Below the pieces are notes generated by a model. It saw only the letters and a list, made by a program, of their open reading frames with translations, did no database searches and was not told the DNA's origin. This document shows, in pieces, positions 1-25,409 of a stretch of 25,951 bases of DNA (position 1 is its first letter; each line of letters opens with the position of its first letter). Source of the DNA: a virus. The DNA is taken from the IMG/VR virus record IMGVR_UViG_3300045413_000050, positions 1-25,951 of that record; one strand, written 5' to 3'. Position numbers and translations under genes: made by a program.

Positions 1-3000
1 CACTTAGAAGAATTAGGAACGAGGCAGTAAATATTGTTAAGATGGTATTCCAGTCCGACATATTCCAGAACAATGTATTCCAGATAAAAATTGATGAGGT
101 ATTACCATTATTAACTATGAATAGAGTTGTTTCTAAATCCGTATCTATTACTTCATCTACACTAAAGTATATTGGACTTGGAAGAATTATTAATGATTCC
201 ATTAGCATGGTAGAATCCAAGGCAAGATTGGGAACATTTAGAAAAGTATTGGTAGAATCTATCTCAGTACAGTCATTCAGAAGCAAGTTAGAACAACTGT
301 TGAAGATAGTATCAAGTATTGTCAATATTGCCAAGGCTGAGAACTATGTAAGAGGAAGACAAAAGGTTGTAAATAATATAGTAACAATCAACAGGTATGG
401 AGTATTCCAAAACATATTCCAATCTAATGTATTTCAAACCATTCAGAATGAGATAGTAGTGTTGATAAGATTGGGTAGGATTATTAATAATACAATTAAC
501 GTGCCAAGTACAATTAGACGATTGGGCGTATTCAGACGAATTAAGAATGAGGTGGTATCAATTATGCACTCTCATAGAACATTAATGACAATATTAAAAG
601 TGGTAACTTACTATGAACAATTAGTGGGTGTAAAGATAAGATCACTCGTAATGAAGCGTGTGTATGGTGAAAACATATCCATACAATCATTCAGAAGTAA
701 ACTTGAAATACTTAGAAGAGTGATTAATGACAGTATCAGTGTTGCAGAGAATAAGATCAAATACTCTGTATTGGTGAGACCGTTAATTGAAAATATCAAC
801 TTATCTCAAACACAGAGAAACCTGCTTGGATTTAAAAAGATAGTTAATGAATCACTATCCATTGTAGATTCTTATATAAAATATGAGGTATTGCAGAGAC
901 TGGTAAATGAAACAATTAGTATTGATGAATCATTTAGAAAGTCATGGATTAGGATATTCAGTGATATTCTTAACATTATAGATAGTAGAGTGAGATATGG
1001 TATATTTAGGCGTATTATTAACAATGATGTATCCATACAGTCATTTAGAAGTAAACTGGAGATAATCAGACGTGTAATTAATGAGTCTATTAGTATGACA
1101 GAATCCAAATTCAGATCACTCATTATGTCTAGAATACAAACTAATTCAATCAATATGGTAGATAGTAGAATTAAATATCAAATATTGAACCGTATAATAA
1201 GCAAATTCATACAAATAGAATCTACACATATAAGACGAAATACATTGAAAAGAATTATTACAGAAGTGGAAAATATAGGATTAAGAATATTCCAATCCGA
1301 TGTATTCCAGAATAACGTGTTTGCAGTATCAGAAGTAATACGATTCCTAATATTGAGAAGGATGATATTTAACAACGTTAGTATGGGTGAGAGTTTGAGA
1401 AAATCATGGGCTAGGGTATTCAGTGATACAATTAATATTGTGGATGGTAGGGTAAGATTAGGCGTACTTAAACGTATTATTGGTGAGGATGTATCAATAC
1501 AATCCTTTAGAAACAAGTTACAGATACTACGTAGGATAGTTAATGAAGGAATAAATATTGCTGAATCATTCAGAAAGTCATGGATTAGGGTATTTGGGGA
1601 AGGTATCAATATTGTAGATGATAGAGTTCCACGTCTATCTCTAAAACGTGTAATAAACAAATCTGTTGATATATTTGATTCAAGAGTGAAATTGGGATAC
1701 TTTAGAAGAATCATCACCAATTATGTCAATATGGACAGTACAATATACAGACTTGGTGTATTGAGAAGGGTGTTTGGTGAGAGTATATCTATAGAATCCA
1801 ACTATAGAAAATACCAATCATTGATGAGGGTATTAGTTAAATTTGTAGAATTGGTTGATTCACGTATCCCACGCCTATCCATTACTAGGACTATTAGCCG
1901 TATAGTAAACATATCCCACTCACATACCGTAAGACTATCATTAACTAGAGTATTACAGGAGAGTGTATCTATACAGTCATTCAGAAGTAAGCTGGAAGTA
2001 ATAAGGCGTATAATCAGTGAGGGTATGAACGTTACTGAATCATTCAGAAAGTCATGGACTAGAATATTTACAGAGTTTGTACAGATTAACCTAGCTGGTA
2101 TATTCCAAAGTATATTCCAATCCGATGTATTCCAAAAAATCTATAGAGAGACATTTGTATATCTTACAATGAAACGTGTCAGGAATGAATCAGTTGAAAT
2201 TACTGATAGTGTTAGAAAACTATCGTCATTAACAAGAGTCATAAATAAAGCTGTAAGTGTTACAGATTCATTTGTGAGAAGAATCACACTTAGACGAATC
2301 ATTAATAACACTATAAACTTGTCAGAATCATTTAGTAAGTCACAGACAATCATGAGGAGATTAATTGAGTATATGATAGTGCCATCAACACCAATAAAAT
2401 CACTAACATTAAGGCGTGTATACTCCGAGTCCATTAGTATTGTACATGGTATTAAACGAACATTAACCATACATAGATTAATCAATGAGTCGGTATCGAT
2501 ACAATCATTCAGGGGTAGATTAGAATACCTATTAAAAATCATCAATGAGGGACTAACATTGGTAGATTCACGAATATCAAAGAAGACCTTATTGAGAAGT
2601 TTGAATGAGTTCGTACAAATAGTAGATTTACAAATTAAGAGATTATCTCTAAAACGTGTAATTAATGAAGTCAGTAACATAACCTCAAATGTAATCAGAA
2701 AGTTGGTATTATTGAGAGTGATTAACAATGTAGTATCAATACAATCGTTTAGGGGTAGATTAGAATACTTACTAAAAATTATTAATGAATCAATGGAAGT
2801 AGTTGAAACCAGTATCAAATATGGTATATTTAAACGAACCATTGTGGAAGTACAGAATATAGTTCATTCATTTATATACTACTTTGTAATAGTAAAAACA
2901 GTAATTAATGGTATATCTATAAATGATAATATTGTTAGACGAATGACATTATTAAGAAGAATTAATGAGTCATTATCAATACTATCATTGTTTAGAAAAC

Positions 3001-3371
3001 ACGAATCAATACTAAGACGTGTTAGTAATTCGGTAGAGATAGGTGAATCACTTAGAAAATCATGGATTAAGGTGTTCAATGAATCTATAAATACAGTATT
3101 AATTATTAAATCATTTAAAATAATCTATATAATCATTGGTGAGTCAATATCTATTCAATCATTCAGAAATAGACGTGAAATCATATTGAGAGTGATTAAT
3201 GAGGGAGTGAGTATCGTAGAATCCTTTACTAAAATACTACTATCGGTGGTAGATGCCTTTTCACCAAAGACCAAGTTTGGTAAAGTTACACGTTCTGTAA
3301 AAGTACATGGTACGTCAAAACGTGTTAAACTTTATAAAGACGACAGGAATATAAAAGGTGAAAGCGAATGA
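1..3371 (+). CDS. giant basic 20-residue-repeat protein, 5' partial (tail fibre/adhesin-like)
   Basis: The reading frame is already open at base 3 and reads LRRIRNEAVNIVK before the first ATG at 42. That segment fits the internal repeat, so the gene begins upstream of the window and is 5'-truncated here. The visible 1,122 residues are almost entirely degenerate 20-residue units with consensus near R-R-V-I-N-E-S-I-S-I-x-E-S-x-R-x, then hydrophobics; units can be followed in register, for example from 2660 to 2840. A sub-motif SIQSFRSKLE recurs eight times and ESFRKSWIR about five times. Four units are replaced by FQ-rich segments such as VFQSDIFQNNVFQ. The last 40 residues are non-repetitive and basic. 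No signal peptide or membrane segment is seen in the visible part. The gene overlaps the next one by 4 bp (ATGA), as in a virion structural operon. Alternating hydrophobics suggest a beta-solenoid or fibre. Function is inferred; a host-like surface or adhesion protein is the alternative. Confidence 0.75.
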   Translation, partial: LRRIRNEAVNIVKMVFQSDIFQNNVFQIKIDEVLPLLTMNRVVSKSVSITSSTLKYIGLGRIINDSISMVESKARLGTFRKVLVESISVQSFRSKLEQLLKIVSSIVNIAKAENYVRGRQKVVNNIVTINRYGVFQNIFQSNVFQTIQNEIVVLIRLGRIINNTINVPSTIRRLGVFRRIKNEVVSIMHSHRTLMTILKVVTYYEQLVGVKIRSLVMKRVYGENISIQSFRSKLEILRRVINDSISVAENKIKYSVLVRPLIENINLSQTQRNLLGFKKIVNESLSIVDSYIKYEVLQRLVNETISIDESFRKSWIRIFSDILNIIDSRVRYGIFRRIINNDVSIQSFRSKLEIIRRVINESISMTESKFRSLIMSRIQTNSINMVDSRIKYQILNRIISKFIQIESTHIRRNTLKRIITEVENIGLRIFQSDVFQNNVFAVSEVIRFLILRRMIFNNVSMGESLRKSWARVFSDTINIVDGRVRLGVLKRIIGEDVSIQSFRNKLQILRRIVNEGINIAESFRKSWIRVFGEGINIVDDRVPRLSLKRVINKSVDIFDSRVKLGYFRRIITNYVNMDSTIYRLGVLRRVFGESISIESNYRKYQSLMRVLVKFVELVDSRIPRLSITRTISRIVNISHSHTVRLSLTRVLQESVSIQSFRSKLEVIRRIISEGMNVTESFRKSWTRIFTEFVQINLAGIFQSIFQSDVFQKIYRETFVYLTMKRVRNESVEITDSVRKLSSLTRVINKAVSVTDSFVRRITLRRIINNTINLSESFSKSQTIMRRLIEYMIVPSTPIKSLTLRRVYSESISIVHGIKRTLTIHRLINESVSIQSFRGRLEYLLKIINEGLTLVDSRISKKTLLRSLNEFVQIVDLQIKRLSLKRVINEVSNITSNVIRKLVLLRVINNVVSIQSFRGRLEYLLKIINESMEVVETSIKYGIFKRTIVEVQNIVHSFIYYFVIVKTVINGISINDNIVRRMTLLRRINESLSILSLFRKHESILRRVSNSVEIGESLRKSWIKVFNESINTVLIIKSFKIIYIIIGESISIQSFRNRREIILRVINEGVSIVESFTKILLSVVDAFSPKTKFGKVTRSVKVHGTSKRVKLYKDDRNIKGESE
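3..3230 (+). repeat. about fifty degenerate 60-bp (20-aa) in-frame repeats
   Basis: Conserved R-x-I-N-E and S-I-S-I positions recur every 20 codons along the whole stretch. The eight better-conserved SIQSFR sub-repeats start near 262, 676, 1030, 1492, 1966, 2493, 2735 and 3145. Their irregular spacing suggests duplication of blocks followed by divergence. Confidence 0.85.
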
Positions 3372-19525: not shown

Positions 19526-20455
19526 TCAATTAGCGAACTTCTCTACAATAGCCTGAACGACATTCACTGTAACTGCATTACCCATCTGCCTGTAACGCTG
19601 CGTCTTGCTTACACCATCTGTCCAGCCATCAGGAAAACCTTGCAGTCTTTCACATTCTAACGGTGTGAGCATCCTTAGTTTCTCATTGATCTGGTAAACG
19701 CCAGTCTTTGAACCCATGCCACCAGAGTTTGCCCTAATTGTTCTTGCAATTCCATCAGGCGAATAAATTCGATATGTGTCCTTGTCTGTATACTGTACCA
19801 TCTTGATCATTGTCCTTGATCCAGCCCATCCTTTCCAGTAGGTTGATACGAGTGTTCCACTAAGTGGAGTTTGAACGGAGTTCCCTTGTCCTTGTGCTTC
19901 TGAAAGTGTGCATACATCGACTTGACTGCCTTCTCCGATAGGAAATATTGCCTGTCGGGATTTTCCTCTAAGATGTCCAATAATGAAGATCCTTTCCCTG
20001 TTCTGCGGAACTCCGAAGTCCTTGCTGTTAAGCACTTGCCATTCGTACCAATACCCCAACTCATCCAGCGTTTTGAGGATGGTTTCAAAGGTTCTTCCAC
20101 TATCGTGGTTAAGCAATCCCTTGACATTTTCAAGGAGTAGAATTTCAGGTCGCTTTTCTTTTGCAATCCTAGCGATTTCAAAAAAGAGCGTGCCTCTGGT
20201 ATCTTCAAAGCCTCGTCTTGTTCCAACAACACTAAAACTTTGGCAAGGAAACCCTGCACAGAGAAGGTCGAAGTCTGGAAGTCTGCTTGGCTCGATTCTT
20301 GTAGCATCCAATTCAGAAGGGTAACACCCGAAGTTTTTTCTGTATGTTTCTCTAGCGTACTTGTCAATCTCACACGCACCTACCACTTCGTGACCTAATC
20401 TTGTCAATGCTAGATCGAAGCCACCCACACCACAGAACAATGAAAAACATTTCAT
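19526..20455 (-). CDS. DNA (cytosine-5-)-methyltransferase
   Basis: The 309-aa protein transfers a methyl group from S-adenosylmethionine to C5 of cytosine. Motifs in order are I FCGVGGFD (7-14), IV F69-P-C71-Q with the catalytic Cys71, VI E109-N-V, VIII Q151-N-R-E-R155, IX near LTPLECERLQGFPDGW (263-278) and X G292-N-A-V. The target-recognition region (about 170-255) is short, so it is a compact monospecific enzyme; the sequence recognised cannot be read. No cognate restriction endonuclease lies beside it, which fits an orphan viral enzyme that protects DNA from host restriction. Base composition is clearly richer in G+C than most neighbours, suggesting recent transfer. A 21-aa leader ORF is ATGA-coupled upstream. 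Confidence 0.95.
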   Translation of the reverse strand: MKCFSLFCGVGGFDLALTRLGHEVVGACEIDKYARETYRKNFGCYPSELDATRIEPSRLPDFDLLCAGFPCQSFSVVGTRRGFEDTRGTLFFEIARIAKEKRPEILLLENVKGLLNHDSGRTFETILKTLDELGYWYEWQVLNSKDFGVPQNRERIFIIGHLRGKSRQAIFPIGEGSQVDVCTLSEAQGQGNSVQTPLSGTLVSTYWKGWAGSRTMIKMVQYTDKDTYRIYSPDGIARTIRANSGGMGSKTGVYQINEKLRMLTPLECERLQGFPDGWTDGVSKTQRYRQMGNAVTVNVVQAIVEKFAN

Positions 20456-20698: not shown

Positions 20699-20929
20699 AT
20701 GGTAACAATTGATTTAAAGACAACTTCGGGGGAAACAGATGGTATATTTTACCATAATTCAGAACGTATAGTAGTATACTTGGCAAACCATGAGACTTTA
20801 ACCGATATTTTGAGCACTATTAGACATGAGTTAATTCATCATGCGATATTTAGATGTGGAGAAGATATGGATGATGATCAAGAAGAGAAACTTGTGTTCT
20901 TTATGAGTTGGGCAGAAGAGTTCTTATAA
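20699..20929 (+). CDS. minimal zincin-like metallopeptidase (HExxH)
   Basis: The 76-aa product consists of strands (TIDLKTTSG, GIFYHNSERIVVYLA), a helix with H43-E-L-I-H47-H (from TIRHELIHHAIF), and a C-terminal acidic helix where a third metal ligand could lie. This is the core of SprT/ImmA-like and other minimal zincins. The size is very small, so it may be a stand-alone peptidase or a metal-binding remnant. The much larger HELGH protein at 21449-23401 has the same kind of core. Confidence 0.6.
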   Translation: MVTIDLKTTSGETDGIFYHNSERIVVYLANHETLTDILSTIRHELIHHAIFRCGEDMDDDQEEKLVFFMSWAEEFL

Positions 20930-21072
20930 ATCTTAATTTTAGTCCTAAGTAAACCATTACAACACCCACACCTTCTTCTTTGTAACTTTTTATTTTCTAT
21001 ACATATATGTGACTCTGGAATATATCTTTCACAGTGCTGACAGTATCTAGTTATACCATTTCTACCAAACAT
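20878..21072 (-). CDS. mini zinc-ribbon protein (64 aa)
   Basis: It carries C11-Q-H-C14, H22/C24 and C35-G-C-C38, with a basic C-terminal tail. ATG 21072 is 28 nt from a TATATTTATG box, so the longer start at 21093 (adding MCNGICS) is not preferred. It converges on and overlaps the zincin gene by 52 bp. Function unknown. Confidence 0.55.
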   Translation of the reverse strand: MFGRNGITRYCQHCERYIPESHICIENKKLQRRRCGCCNGLLRTKIKIYKNSSAQLIKNTSFSS

Positions 21073-21091
21073 ACTACATATACCATTACAC

Positions 21092-21101
21092 ATAAATATA
21101 C
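21092..21101 (-). promoter_or_regulatory. TATA box of the 21072 gene
   Basis: Minus strand GTATATTTAT, with the first T 28 nt from the start. Confidence 0.5.
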
Positions 21102-21211: not shown

Positions 21212-21253
21212 GTTAGATTAAAGTGCCTAGTCCTAGGTTCGTAATCTAATATA
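21210..21253. other. long hairpin in a gene-poor segment
   Basis: TTAGATTA and TAATCTAA form an 8-bp perfect stem, with an inner CCTA/TAGG stem and a four-base loop. It overlaps the 3' end of the 58-aa gene and may be a transcript end or a protein site. The T-run on its flank lies on the wrong side for a minus-strand terminator. Confidence 0.45.
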
Positions 21254-21409
21254 TAAGTCCTTATTAGCTTTATAGTAATAGAATAGCTTATTATCATTCA
21301 AGCTAGATAAGTAGTCTATAGTATCAATGTGTGTGGGTATAAATAATATAGTTTGATATCTAATTATTTCATTAATAAAATAACGTCTATCATCTGCGGT
21401 TAAAATCAT
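21233..21409 (-). CDS. hypothetical 58-aa protein
   Basis: This short ORF has a leaderless start 31 nt from TTTATTAATA. The product is Tyr/Ile/Asp-rich (DDRRYFINEIIRY, TILFIPTHIDTIDYL) and probably folds as alternating helices and strands. Its neighbour 39 nt upstream is the VWA protein on the same strand. No family recognised. Confidence 0.5.
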   Translation of the reverse strand: MILTADDRRYFINEIIRYQTILFIPTHIDTIDYLSSLNDNKLFYYYKANKDLYIRLRT

Positions 21410-21448: not shown

Positions 21449-23401
21449 CTAACGTAATTCGTCAACTATTATCTTTCTGAACTTTCGCATTAATACATCT
21501 ACCATATTATCTCCATCAACATTTATAACATTCTTGAATAATTTATGCATTACTGAATCATCATCACCTATGAATATTGGAACTATGTTTCCAATAGTTT
21601 TAATCTGCTTAATCTCAGAAGCGCACATTTGTATTGTTTCTTTTTGTTGGGTTTTAATAGAACCTATCATCAAATTCGATGGGGAACCATCTGTCAAGAA
21701 TATAATTATCTTCTTCCTACCTCTCATATTATGTAATATTGTTTTTGATTTCCTTAATGCTTGAACCGTGGGTGTTTGCTCATACGCAGAATAAACCTTC
21801 AATCTATCTATCTTGCTTAGATCATCAATTAGGGTGTATCCCATTTCAGCATCTCTCCCCCCCCATGATATTGCTTTTATTTCTATTTCTTTCTTATCCT
21901 TTACAGACCGCATCATTGTCTTAACTATTGTGTGGACAACATCCATCTTTTTAAAACTCTTATCCTTCACCCAATTATCCATAGAGCCACTCGCATCTAC
22001 AGATAATAGTATTGATAGTTTTATCTTGTTCAACTTTCTATTGAATATCTTTGTGCCACGCTCTTGTATGCTGTTTAGATATGCTCTGAGATTCACACCA
22101 TCCCCACTATTCATTAGTCTATTCTTTCTATTAGTTACTGTATCTACAGTCTTTCGTATTTCGTTTCTAACCTTAAGTGGTAAAACCATTTCGTGGATTG
22201 AAGAAGAAAGGAGGTCTAGATTATTGGTTATATCAATTTCAGTTGCATTATTCTTCATGGTTGAGATGCCTAATTTAGTATTTAACTCTTTAATCTCGTT
22301 TTGTTTTTCCTCACTCAAATCAACCCCATCTATTTCATCTTTGTCAAACCCCTCACTAATTGATATTGGGTTTAACATCGTTGAATCAATGCCACCATTA
22401 ATATTCTCTTTTTGGTCTTTAAACATATTCTCAATATTATTTTGTATGTTTTTTATCTTTTTCTTATTTCTATATTCCTTAGCCTTTAATGCTTTCATTT
22501 TCTTTTTATAGTCACTATTTATCGAAGCTCTTTTCATTTGTCGGTCTTGTTCTAATTTATTAACCTCGTCTTCGTTTTTACATTTAGATACTGCTTCTCT
22601 AAACTCATCACGCATATTATCTATTTCGTGGTTAGTCTGTGTAGTTTGATTCATTCCCTCTGTTCTAATATCCCGTATATTTTGTTCATGCTTATCAATC
22701 TTATCATTATCACTCTTTAATTTATCCAACATGTTATCTAGATATGGGTGATAGTAGTTTTTACAAAATTCTCTAAATATTTTAATCATGCCTTTATGTG
22801 ATTGCATGTTAAGACTCTCATGTATATTCATGTATGTATCCTGTTCAGCTTCGGGCAGCAGTTCATTATCAAAGAATCTAGTAGCAAGTAGTTTAGATGC
22901 TGGATCATCCAGTGTCTTCGTGCTACCTTTCATACTCTTTCTAACTTTTATATATCCATCAGCTCTTCCAATCCTGCCATAACCATCCTTACTTTCCATC
23001 CTCACATCCTCCATTATATTAAAAAGCGATATATGTGCATTTATAATTCCTTTACCTATAAACGTGTCTGCAAAATCGCTTGTTAAATATAACTCATTGG
23101 GGTGTAGCTTGCTACATACTTTATCTAGATATTCAGTCGTCACCATTTTCAGCGATGCTAGGAAGCTACGTTTAAAACTTTCTTGTACTATATGCCCAAG
23201 CTCATGCTTTAATATTGTTAGTATTTGTTCAGTAGACATACTCATATTGACATAGACATTATATATTTCACCACGTTTATCATTTACTTTAACGGTGTAT
23301 CCCTTTACGTTATCTTTAGCATGAAATAGAATTATATCACATCCTGTCTTTTCCCTAGCAATCTGTATGTAGTCATTCATTATATTATCGATTGATCTCA
23401 T
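21449..23401 (-). CDS. zincin/coiled-coil/VWA protein (CobT- or DUF2201-like)
   Basis: The 650-aa protein has three parts. Residues 1-140 hold a zincin-type site, H66-E-L-G-H70, with a downstream LFNIMEDVRME (127-137) that could supply the third ligand, as in putative-metallopeptidase (DUF2201_N-like) and CobT-type proteins. Residues about 220-340 are highly charged coiled coil. Residues about 462-640 form a VWA domain with an intact MIDAS: D469-A-S471-G-S473, a Thr near 543-545 and D571 in LTDGSPS. Such VWA proteins work with MoxR/CobS AAA+ partners in chelatase or chaperone machines; the ATPase is the gene just upstream. A strong GGAGGT site (23411-23416) precedes the ATG by 9 nt. The substrate is unknown. 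Confidence 0.85.
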   Translation of the reverse strand: MRSIDNIMNDYIQIAREKTGCDIILFHAKDNVKGYTVKVNDKRGEIYNVYVNMSMSTEQILTILKHELGHIVQESFKRSFLASLKMVTTEYLDKVCSKLHPNELYLTSDFADTFIGKGIINAHISLFNIMEDVRMESKDGYGRIGRADGYIKVRKSMKGSTKTLDDPASKLLATRFFDNELLPEAEQDTYMNIHESLNMQSHKGMIKIFREFCKNYYHPYLDNMLDKLKSDNDKIDKHEQNIRDIRTEGMNQTTQTNHEIDNMRDEFREAVSKCKNEDEVNKLEQDRQMKRASINSDYKKKMKALKAKEYRNKKKIKNIQNNIENMFKDQKENINGGIDSTMLNPISISEGFDKDEIDGVDLSEEKQNEIKELNTKLGISTMKNNATEIDITNNLDLLSSSIHEMVLPLKVRNEIRKTVDTVTNRKNRLMNSGDGVNLRAYLNSIQERGTKIFNRKLNKIKLSILLSVDASGSMDNWVKDKSFKKMDVVHTIVKTMMRSVKDKKEIEIKAISWGGRDAEMGYTLIDDLSKIDRLKVYSAYEQTPTVQALRKSKTILHNMRGRKKIIIFLTDGSPSNLMIGSIKTQQKETIQMCASEIKQIKTIGNIVPIFIGDDDSVMHKLFKNVINVDGDNMVDVLMRKFRKIIVDELR

Positions 23402-23425
23402 TGTTGTACTACCTCCAAGATATGT

Positions 23426-24379
23426 TTAAAGTGTAACTCCAAACACATCTGCTATCTTATCCTTTACTATCGTTCTTTGCTCTTCAGTTGGCATTTTAAA
23501 TACTACTGCCATCTCTAATGCCATTCGTATTGCCATGTCATGTGCGCTATTAGCGGTATCTACTGTAGGGTTTGGATTGCGTAGGGCATATATGTTCGCA
23601 AACTGTTGCAAACTCCTAGTAGATAGTGAGTAGTCAAGTGAGCCATTATTACGCAGGTTTCGTATATCATTTGCCAGCAATAATATCCTATCTATGTCGC
23701 CAGCACTCATGGTCTTCCAATTTACTATTGCCTTGATTATATTGTCGGGAGGTAGCTTGATTATTTTTCCCATAATCCTATCTGCCAAATCCTCGTTCAA
23801 TGAGTTGACACCACTATATGATAGTGGATTCATTGTGCCTATTAAGGTCAACACACATCCATGATTCACCCTAAATATATGGGAGTTTGCTACACACATT
23901 CTTCTATCATCTGTCACACTATTAATTAACTTCTGCGTGTCTGTGGGCAGGGCGTTTATCTCATCCAAGTATATCACTGCATTACCAAACTTATTGGCAC
24001 ACATTATTCCAATAGGTAATATACCTAATTGAAATGCAAACGTTCCATCTTTCCTAATTACTGTGTGACCCAATAGGTCAGAATCACTAGTGGAACTAGA
24101 ACAATTGTATGGAATCATGTGGGTTTTCAGGACTGTACATAGGTCATTAATTAGTAGCGTCTTACCTAATCCCTTATCTCCCTCCAATATGAAATGGAAT
24201 CCAGCCTTAATCATAGACTCACATTCACTGGCTTCTCCGTTAATGTCCCTATATTCTATACCATAGTTCCTAGGTTCATACAATTCATAGTTAACCTCTA
24301 CGAATGGTGTGCCATTTACATTTGAATTAAAATTCTCAGATGTATTTGACGATTCTTTTATTTGATTTTGCTTTGTCAT
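23426..24379 (-). CDS. MoxR/CobS-like AAA+ ATPase
   Basis: The 317-aa protein has a variable N-terminus (1-30), Walker A G67-D-K-G-L-G-K-T74, Walker B V135-I-Y-L-D-E140, sensor 1 G181-T-M-N184-P and an arginine finger in DLADR201. The long loop between Walker A and B (DLLGHTVIRKDG) is typical of the MoxR/CobS/GvpN group. These ATPases form hexamers that remodel proteins or insert metals with a VWA partner, here the zincin-VWA protein 24 nt downstream. Cobalt insertion for cobalamin (CobS) is possible but cannot be separated from other MoxR roles. It has its own promoter, nearly identical to that at 25371. Confidence 0.88.
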   Translation of the reverse strand: MTKQNQIKESSNTSENFNSNVNGTPFVEVNYELYEPRNYGIEYRDINGEASECESMIKAGFHFILEGDKGLGKTLLINDLCTVLKTHMIPYNCSSSTSDSDLLGHTVIRKDGTFAFQLGILPIGIMCANKFGNAVIYLDEINALPTDTQKLINSVTDDRRMCVANSHIFRVNHGCVLTLIGTMNPLSYSGVNSLNEDLADRIMGKIIKLPPDNIIKAIVNWKTMSAGDIDRILLLANDIRNLRNNGSLDYSLSTRSLQQFANIYALRNPNPTVDTANSAHDMAIRMALEMAVVFKMPTEEQRTIVKDKIADVFGVTL

Positions 24380-24417
24380 GCCGTGCCTAACCCCACCAAA
24401 GGATATAAGTCTTTTGG
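24375..24417 (-). promoter_or_regulatory. ATPase promoter with duplicated 43-bp element
   Basis: On the plus strand GTCATGCCGTGCCTAAC, 12 variable bases, then TATAAGTCTTTTGG. The minus TATA box (CTTATATCC) is 30 nt from ATG 24379. The block from the TATA box to the start codon matches 25367-25409. Confidence 0.75.
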
Positions 24418-24421
24418 GACA

Positions 24422-24823
24422 TTATTCTATTACCTTAGTTTGTATATGTTCTTCTCTATTATTGTCTAGTTGAAAGTCTTTAATCAGACCCGTATCTATG
24501 TTGATTACTGCATCACATCCTATTGGTATATCATATACCTTATCATCATTTCTAATAGTAACTATTGGATTACCGCCCAACTTGATATTTTCTACACATC
24601 CTCTTCTTAATGTCCTTATACTCCTACCATGTATTACATGACGTAATGCCTTAGTAGTTGTAATAGATCTCCAACCAGCGGGGGTAATATACACATTACC
24701 CATACTCCACCATGCTATTCTATTGGTGAATAGTAATAGTTCATCACCAGTAGATATATAATTCCCTGAATGTTTGACACCACCATCTAGAAATGCATCT
24801 ATTACATCATGACGGTTTATCAT
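24422..24823 (-). CDS. conserved phage-type hypothetical protein
   Basis: The 133-aa product has a first half with FTNRIAWWSMGNVYITPAGWRSITTTKALRH in pieces (about 32-62). This resembles small phage proteins that have an I-A-W, gly, strand, G-W-x-(S/T)-x-T-T run, function unknown. The second half is beta-rich (KLGGNPIVTIRN, VYDIPIGCDAVINI). A GGAGGA site lies 6 nt before the ATG, which overlaps the upstream stop (ATGA). It is co-transcribed with the MoxR operon genes. Confidence 0.6.
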   Translation of the reverse strand: MINRHDVIDAFLDGGVKHSGNYISTGDELLLFTNRIAWWSMGNVYITPAGWRSITTTKALRHVIHGRSIRTLRRGCVENIKLGGNPIVTIRNDDKVYDIPIGCDAVINIDTGLIKDFQLDNNREEHIQTKVIE

Positions 24824-25128
24824 TTATAATCCTCCATTCTATAGGGTTTTAGACTCCTATATATCCTCAATGTGCTTTCTACAGTGGCTATCATCTTAAT
24901 AGTATCCACATTCAATGTCCTATTTAGACAATCAAAAATATCTAGTTGTATGTTTTGTTTTTTATTTAAGAGTTGCTGGATTGATCTAGTTAGTACGTGC
25001 ATTGTTTTCTCGAAGTTTGCATCATCCTTTATAAGATTACCAGATACACACATAAGGTATCCAGTAACTAGACACTCTAGTTCACTCTTACTCAGGTCAC
25101 TATGTTCAGGTATATCGGGAGTATTCAT
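24820..25128 (-). CDS. hypothetical helical protein of the MoxR operon
   Basis: From ATG 25128 the 102-aa product is helical (KSELECLVTGYLMCVSGNLI, ANFEKTMHVLTRSIQQLLNKK in pieces). It starts one base after the stop of the zinc peptide. Its first 12 bases, ATGAATACTCCC, are identical to those of that peptide gene, which supports this start over the longer frame to 25164. Partner or adaptor role is possible; no family recognised. Confidence 0.55.
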   Translation of the reverse strand: MNTPDIPEHSDLSKSELECLVTGYLMCVSGNLIKDDANFEKTMHVLTRSIQQLLNKKQNIQLDIFDCLNRTLNVDTIKMIATVESTLRIYRSLKPYRMEDYK

Positions 25129-25129
25129 C

Positions 25130-25285
25130 TTACCATTCCTCTCCATCCTGATTAAATTCATCATACTTCATATATGAAACTCCCTCAGAATCATACTTTA
25201 TTCGTTGATGATAGACACATCCATCTTCATCTTGTGGTGTTTCATATCCGCATATATTGCAGTATGCTTTATTGGGAGTATTCAT
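25130..25285 (-). CDS. mini zinc-finger protein (51 aa) of the MoxR operon
   Basis: It encodes C9-N-I-C12 and C23-V-Y-H26, a CCCH-type finger, followed by an acidic tail. It is ATGA-coupled to a 29-aa leader upstream and is followed directly by the 102-aa gene. As the first real cistron it may regulate the operon. Function unknown. Confidence 0.65.
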   Translation of the reverse strand: MNTPNKAYCNICGYETPQDEDGCVYHQRIKYDSEGVSYMKYDEFNQDGEEW

Positions 25286-25371
25286 AATACCACTCCATTA
25301 TACATGTATATATCCGTAGTTGAAACAATGGAATATACACATATATTTATCATATATGTTGTTTCGGTCAT
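25282..25371 (-). CDS. 29-aa leader ORF of the MoxR operon
   Basis: The peptide starts MTETTYM and is Tyr/Val/Ile-rich with no clear motif. ATG 25371 is 30 nt from TTTATAAC and the stop overlaps the zinc-finger start (ATGA). Like the leader before the methyltransferase, it puts a short leaderless cistron ahead of a coupled gene. Confidence 0.5.
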   Translation of the reverse strand: MTETTYMINICVYSIVSTTDIYMYNGVVL

Positions 25372-25409
25372 ACCGTGCCTAACACATGCATCCGTTATAA
25401 ATCTTTTGG
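25367..25409 (-). promoter_or_regulatory. operon promoter with the same 43-bp element
   Basis: Plus strand GTCATACCGTGCCTAAC, 12 variable bases, then TATAAATCTTTTGG. It matches 24375-24417 at 16 of 17 and 13 of 14 positions in the two blocks, with the same spacing. Confidence 0.75.

Follow-up and report, generated by a model that had tools for sequence, protein, structure and literature searches.

A MoxR-type ATPase and zincin-VWA cassette in a tailed virus probably infecting marine group I archaea

Gene pairs encoding an AAA+ ATPase and a VWA protein have been described in tailed viruses under two names. In group 2.2 jumbo phages, Iyer et al. (2021) reported a MoxR-vWA pair whose vWA protein carries an N-terminal metallopeptidase domain, and proposed a function in virion assembly and proteolytic processing (PMC7824862). 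Liu et al. (2021) found a cobST cluster to be widespread in tailed viruses and proposed that it borrows the CobN of the host; its cobT gene is usually annotated as a peptidase, wrongly in the view of these authors (PMC8651126). In the NorQ-NorD system (NorQD), a finger of the VWA domain enters the pore of the ATPase and the use of ATP remodels, or twists, the NorD linker with no proteolysis (PMC13036017), and function, unlike ATPase binding, depends on the residues of the metal ion-dependent adhesion site (MIDAS; PMC9976466). Here, we analyze a cassette of this kind found in the IMG/VR virus record IMGVR_UViG_3300045413_000050, the whole of which (25,951 bases) is referred to below as the window. 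The cassette consists of two genes, coding for a MoxR-class ATPase and a zincin-VWA protein, and is a divergent member of the known viral module. A sequence-only reading of the window had presented it as a candidate new system, but the architecture has already been published in tailed viruses (PMC8651126, PMC7824862) and CobS is typical of marthaviruses (PMC7678222).

The ATPase and its zincin-VWA partner

The ATPase gene (positions 23426 to 24379, minus strand) encodes 317 amino acids and belongs to the MoxR class, CbbQ/NorQ group, by its domain (AAA_5, E value of 5e-17; phrog_249, E value of 1e-22), its conserved residues and its fold. The Walker A motif, GDKGLGKT, lies at 24158-24181 on the minus strand. 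The ATPase has 37 relatives; in the family, residues K73, T74, D139 and R201 are invariant and E140 nearly so. With the AlphaFold2 model (predicted local distance difference test score, pLDDT, of 88; predicted template modeling score, pTM, of 0.82), the top folds were CbbQ2 (Z of 25.8, 261 aligned residues, root mean square deviation, rmsd, of 2.6) and NorQ (Z of 24.1), with the next group at a Z of 17.

The partner gene (21449 to 23401, minus strand) encodes a protein of 650 amino acids with an N-terminal metallopeptidase-like domain, a helical linker and a C-terminal VWA domain with its MIDAS, as indicated by a match to VWA_2 (residues 465 to 572, E value of 1e-6), invariant residues and fold. 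Three motifs mark it along the minus strand. The first, HELGH (residues 66 to 70; 23192 to 23206), holds the predicted zinc ligands H66 and H70 and the predicted catalytic E67, the second, NIMEDVRME (residues 128 to 136; 22994 to 23020), places on a second helix the predicted third zinc ligand, E131, and the third is the MIDAS sequence DASGS (residues 469 to 473; 21983 to 21997). In their general forms (HExxH, N-x-x-E-D-x-R-x-[ED] and DxSxS), all three were present in 37 of 37 zincin-VWA proteins, and a strict HExxH within the first 150 amino acids appeared in only 0.4% of the shuffles of the 650-amino-acid protein. Since HExxH is conserved across the homologues, the zincin motif is meaningful. 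The HELGH pointed out by the sequence-only reading is real and conserved, but the domain that had been described as embedded is N-terminal and not inside the VWA domain.

Conservation was concentrated at these sites. Residues H66, E67, H70, N128, E131, D132, R134, E136, D469, S471, S473, T543 and D571 were invariant in 34 aligned sequences whose mean identity to the window protein was only ~21%, and the mean pairwise identity was 0.36 in the zincin domain and 0.37 in the VWA domain, with 0.20 in the linker. This pattern is what a working metallopeptidase-like site would show, and zinc binding and cleavage are predicted properties. In zincins, the catalytic glutamate, found here at the position of E67, is not needed for zinc binding alone. 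Both genes are under purifying selection, with ratios of nonsynonymous to synonymous substitution rates (dN/dS) among close pairs of 0.07 to 0.14 for the ATPase and 0.15 to 0.25 for the zincin-VWA protein.

In the model of the 650-amino-acid protein (pLDDT of 76), the best folds for the VWA part were the NorD VWA (Z of 21.0, 233 aligned residues, rmsd of 5.4) and then the Rea1 MIDAS domain (Z of 18.2, 198 aligned residues, rmsd of 2.8). The list of PDB matches covered the VWA part alone and contained no zincin chain, which is uninformative either way for the N-terminal domain. Among viral predictions, the top full-length matches were named CobT-VWA or VWFA and included proteins of HCTV-2, HVTV-1 and Thermus phage P74-26.

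Viral relatives and copies in archaeal cells

Neither the ATPase nor the VWA protein retrieved relatives from the viral collection when used as a single query; the relatives were reached through an alignment of TerL and then one of the ATPase. The TerL alignment led to IMG/VR contigs at 69 to 76% TerL identity, and among 18 of these contigs a clear ATPase homologue (33 to 40% identity) was found in 7 and a VWA homologue in 8. Searching with the ATPase alignment yielded 37 related loci. An 11-sequence ATPase alignment was too diverse to serve as a query. The only match of the ATPase in the phage collection, MT838533, was dropped as it belongs to a different MoxR/DUF58/VWA operon of gut bacteria. 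Genes were called on the related loci and families were built by iterated hidden Markov model (HMM) searches, with some of the counts given below made over 38 loci; near-duplicates are present among them (L111/L112, L137/L138 and L114/L144). In all 36 loci where the contig reached far enough, the VWA gene was located downstream of the ATPase on the same strand, at an offset of 0.9 to 3.9 kb. The closest relative, L110 (63% ATPase identity), has a contig that stops within the cassette and is outside this count. Together with the invariant MIDAS residues, this pairing bears out the earlier description of the two large genes as a complete AAA+/VWA pair.

The window encodes TerL, MCM and RadA, and the G+C content is 32 to 36%. 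Its MCM matched archaeal viruses only, and the nearest TerL was that of a halovirus (31% identity). In a Lake Baikal study, radA, ATPases and CobS were given as typical genes of marthaviruses, the tailed viruses of marine group I archaea (PMC7678222), and the window, as a tailed virus with radA, ATPases and a "CobS," is like them as far as the published gene list goes. TerL homologues (38 to 50% identity) were also found in 3 of 250 Nitrosopumilaceae genomes, where they may be virus contigs binned with cells. The virus is probably a marthavirus-like caudovirus, and its inferred host an ammonia-oxidizing marine group I (Nitrosopumilaceae) archaeon.

The same architecture could be followed in annotated phages and haloviruses. 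In the VWA proteins of Synechococcus phage syn9, haloviruses Hardycor1 and HCTV-2, and phages GMA6, Cantare and Camerico, HExxH is N-terminal, an E-D motif follows it and DxSxS lies toward the C terminus, and all six proteins adjoin or lie near a CobS-like ATPase; the one of syn9 is annotated as a peptidase. Thermus phage P23-45 has the pair with a VWA protein that lacks HExxH. Haloviruses HF2 and HGTV-1 gave no match to phrog_249 or phrog_5298. We also asked whether gp09 of HHTV-2 might supply the N-terminal part lacking from a split CobT, an idea that was rejected because its sequence contains no HExxH. Comparison of the profile of the window family with that of the known viral family aligned only the VWA part (E value of 5e-21), and the relatedness of the N-terminal domains was judged by a separate HMM, built from the six viral domains with the window excluded. 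This model gave the window protein 14.7 bits, compared to a maximum of 5.2 in 500 shuffles.

Viral cobST pairs (HCTV-2, Hardycor1, syn9) share with the window an HExxH, an ED motif and a MIDAS, arranged in that order in a protein encoded next to a CobS-like ATPase, but the identity is ~20% or less, the linker length and the neighbors are different, and no CobN was found in the likely host family (see below). The group 2.2 jumbo-phage pair, likened here through its published description (PMC7824862), also has an AAA+ gene beside a vWA protein with an N-terminal metallopeptidase, whereas the window cassette is found in an archaeal tailed virus and is accompanied by a small gene that we call F8, a zinc ribbon and a second zincin. 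NorQ-NorD and CbbQ-CbbO provide the best folds of both proteins and combine a MoxR ATPase with a C-terminal, MIDAS-bearing VWA, but in NorD and CbbO the N-terminal domain is a different one and the target enzyme is known.

In a scan of genome collections, two single-cell genomes of marine group I archaea proved to carry the cassette: AG-319-O22, on a 24-kb contig, and "Candidatus Nitrosopelagicus" AH-558-C08, on a 128-kb contig with housekeeping-like genes. Both cellular ATPases nest within the viral ATPase clade (10-row clade, SH-aLRT support of 100) in a tree used only within the archaeal-virus clade, branches being long outside it. This nesting suggests capture, marine group I cells having apparently acquired the cassette from viruses, and the virus-specific complex suggested by the sequence-only reading is not supported. 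In both cellular loci (L168:5165-10419 and L167:2390-11227), a DnaJ-domain gene follows (E values of 5e-13 and 3e-14), directly after the VWA gene in L168 and three small frames later in L167. CARF-type proteins are found within a few kilobases of both copies, and a Cas4-like nuclease in L168. The new observation of this work is that marine group I single-cell genomes contain apparently captured copies of the cassette followed by a DnaJ-domain gene. Among cells such copies are rare: the cassette appeared in 3 of 151 Nitrosopumilaceae genomes, in one of them on a 4-kb contig (L185:1025-3810) with ATPase and VWA proteins and an N-terminal domain that lacks HExxH. Finally, a locus of Sulfurimonas (L170:5770-8255), with a MoxR-like ATPase, a HELAH/NLFEDARIE fragment and a weakly matching J-domain-like membrane protein (E value of 9e-4), is a possible distant bacterial relative.

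Proposed mechanism and competing roles

We think that the cassette is probably an ATP-driven remodeling machine of tailed viruses, one that would tether its target through the MIDAS and clip it with the metallopeptidase domain. The proposed mechanism takes the NorQD findings (PMC13036017, PMC9976466) as its basis and draws on homology, conservation and fold. The ATPase would form a hexameric ring on whose pore the VWA domain would dock, and the metal of the MIDAS might hold an acidic residue of the target protein, as those of NorD and Rea1 do. Hydrolysis of ATP would pull or twist the target and the N-terminal domain would clip it, the likely targets being proteins, of the virus or of its host, that belong to the early or replication phase. 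Each of the two proteins independently finds one half of the same machine as its best fold, NorQ/CbbQ for the ATPase and the NorD VWA for its partner, and the DnaJ-domain gene downstream of both cellular copies fits with protein remodeling. A remodeling or proteolytic complex had already been suggested by the sequence-only reading, and with the zincin motif conserved such a role is still the best reading.

Several observations weigh against this mechanism. The full-length model of the zincin-VWA protein had a pTM of 0.45, and the zincin fold of the N-terminal domain is deduced from its motifs, from the score with the HMM and from proteins of the IrrE, lethal-factor-like and M34 types that match it weakly. 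HExxH has been lost in the cellular homologue L185 and is lacking in the VWA protein of Thermus phage P23-45, and thus the machine can work without the peptidase. Location speaks in favor of the proposed role, the window cassette being 4 to 5 kb from RadA and MCM and the pairs of syn9, GMA6, Cantare and P23-45 having replication or nucleotide genes around them, but this position is an observation on few records and is suggestive only.

Location also bears on a different role, which we consider unlikely, that of a virion-assembly chaperone and maturation protease remodeling and cleaving structural proteins. It was proposed for the group 2.2 jumbo phages of the same architecture by analogy with the MoxR-vWA pair of Acidianus two-tailed virus (PMC7824862), and the VWA protein has a weak match to phrog_15205 ("tail assembly"). 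However, in this lineage TerL and the large repeat protein are encoded on the other strand and the cassette is found amid small accessory genes, its place in several phages is among replication genes, and the copies captured by hosts have no virion to build.

It is likewise doubtful that the pair performs metal insertion or enzyme activation in the manner of NorQD or CbbQO, with a zincin-like domain that binds the target or a metal and does not cut. NorQ-NorD and CbbQ are the closest solved folds, NorQD twists the NorD linker without proteolysis (PMC13036017), and NorD and CbbO bear unrelated target-binding domains ahead of the VWA (PMC9976466). Against it, all of the catalytic residues (H-E-H and E131), including E67, stay unchanged in proteins that have otherwise diverged strongly. 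Neither a nitric oxide reductase nor a Rubisco, as target enzyme, was found among the annotated genes of the window, where not every frame was scanned.

A part in defense or counter-defense, as a MoxR-vWA switch with a peptidase effector, appears quite unlikely. Conflict systems have been predicted in which MoxR-vWA pairs are the core, in some cases together with a metallopeptidase (PMC7159879), and the cellular copies have the CARF and Cas4-like neighbors described above. On the other hand, PADLOC gave no family for the zincin-VWA protein and only weak ones for the ATPase, and no third component (VMAP, iSTAND or FtsH) was recognized among the neighbors by Pfam or PADLOC, a survey that included no dedicated VMAP model. 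The presence of the cassette throughout the viral lineage at one genome position looks rather like a core function. For the cells, one could imagine that the captured cassette and a membrane-anchored J-domain protein, near CARF and Cas4-like genes, act as a chaperone-protease in defense or stress, the virus and host versions being opposed, an idea to which we give little credence.

The cobaltochelatase interpretation, in which viral CobS and CobT would borrow the CobN of the host and increase cobalamin and hence DNA synthesis, seems very improbable. It has been put forward for haloarchaeal and bacterial tailed viruses (PMC8651126), the name CobS is in use for marthaviruses (PMC7678222), and there is a weak match to phrog_5298 ("cobalamin biosynthesis," E value of 0.005). 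Nevertheless, the CobS equivalog TIGR01650 scored 12.9 bits, compared to a cutoff of 558.55, and the CobT domains PF06213 and PF11775 had no match in the window at E values up to 1. None of 151 Nitrosopumilaceae genomes and none of 34 related virus records contained CobN (PF02514), which was detected in 5 control genomes; in these counts, genomes may be incomplete, virus records are fragmentary and the host family is the likely one. Aerobic cobaltochelatase (CobNST) does resemble the window in its AAA+ and VWA pair, and in the single cellular PF06213 protein examined, from Burkholderia (L184), an ExLEQxRxE helix is retained, although HExxH is not present. A close match to CobS/CobT within a cobalamin operon, which would have spoken against the sequence-only reading, was looked for and did not appear. 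Neither the CobS nor the CobT models recognize the pair, the zincin site does not vary and no CobN was found in the sampled genomes or virus records; on these grounds, the data favor the jumbo-phage description of the parts (PMC7824862) over cobST.

Neighboring genes, promoter repeats and implications

Downstream of the cassette, three small genes recur among the related loci. The first, F8 (21233 to 21409, minus strand), codes for 58 amino acids and has members in 33 of 38 loci, either beside the VWA gene or just before the ATPase; it is ahead of the ATPase rather than after the VWA gene in L111, L112, L116, L117 and L145. Since its position relative to the two genes varies, F8 follows the cassette and not a place in the genome, and it is a candidate for a true partner. 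Long forms of F8 have a C-terminal zinc ribbon. A 71-amino-acid zinc-ribbon protein, F2 (20878 to 21093, minus strand), has family members in 30 of 38 loci. The second small zincin, F3 (20699 to 20929, plus strand), of 76 amino acids, has the motif HELIHH and a SprT-like match (E value of 0.009); its family was found in 32 of 38 loci, where the gene and the cassette are usually convergent.

On the other side, four small frames precede the ATPase on the minus strand: a leader of 29 amino acids (25282 to 25371), whose stop overlaps the start of the next gene, a CxxC protein of 51 amino acids (25130 to 25285), a frame of 114 amino acids (24820 to 25164), or 95 from an inner ATG at 25108, and a protein of 133 amino acids (24422 to 24823). 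As the sequence-only reading had stated, six open frames are thus found in a row on this strand, but its four dedicated small partners did not hold up, since the ATPase and VWA genes of the relatives occur without them. The leader, 51- and 114-amino-acid genes were not beside the ATPase or VWA gene in any of 36 loci, and the 133-amino-acid gene was beside the ATPase only in L110. Weak relatives of the CxxC protein were found in 4 loci, at 5 to 6 kb from the ATPase, and the 133-amino-acid protein is 48% identical to its counterpart at L110:6654-6992 (dN/dS of 0.21, with dS near saturation) and was otherwise seen only in L135, at -6.5 kb. No other related locus had a member of the families of the 114-amino-acid gene, the 93- and 46-amino-acid frames on the leader side, a 99-amino-acid gene or the methyltransferase described below.

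The two matching promoters that had been noted correspond to a real pair of exact repeats. The sequence GTTAGGCACGGYATGAC is found exactly twice in the window (0.05 expected), once before the ATPase (24375 to 24391, minus strand), with a TATA-like CAAAAGACTTATA at 24404-24416, and once before the leader (25367 to 25383, minus strand), with a TATA-like CAAAAGATTTATA at 25396-25408; each copy is ~13 bp downstream of CAAAAGAYTTATA. However, no such repeat was present beside the module in the related loci. The upstream small genes are, we infer, neighbors and not subunits of the machine. A six-gene complex including the leader, the zinc finger and the two unknowns is highly improbable. The tandem order, the promoter-proximal repeat in two copies and the 133-amino-acid gene kept next to the ATPase in L110 speak for it, but 36 other loci with the module lack the leader-side genes, which contradicts it as a general rule.

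Elsewhere in the window, an open-ended frame of ~1,120 amino acids (3 to 3371, plus strand) is made of many diverged repeats of the type LRRIINESISIVES and matched no family above the cutoff; it is perhaps a fiber or tail protein. A C5-cytosine DNA methyltransferase (19526 to 20455, minus strand; PADLOC MTase_II, E value of 1e-103) has no counterpart in the related loci.

The label "CobS" on marthavirus-like genes invites a vitamin B12 story. Since no CobN was found in the likely host family and the zincin, being conserved, points instead to remodeling and cleavage of proteins, it would be wrong to count these genes among the auxiliary metabolic genes for cobalamin. The F8 gene and the link to a J-domain protein in the host-captured copies provide concrete handles on what the machine acts on.

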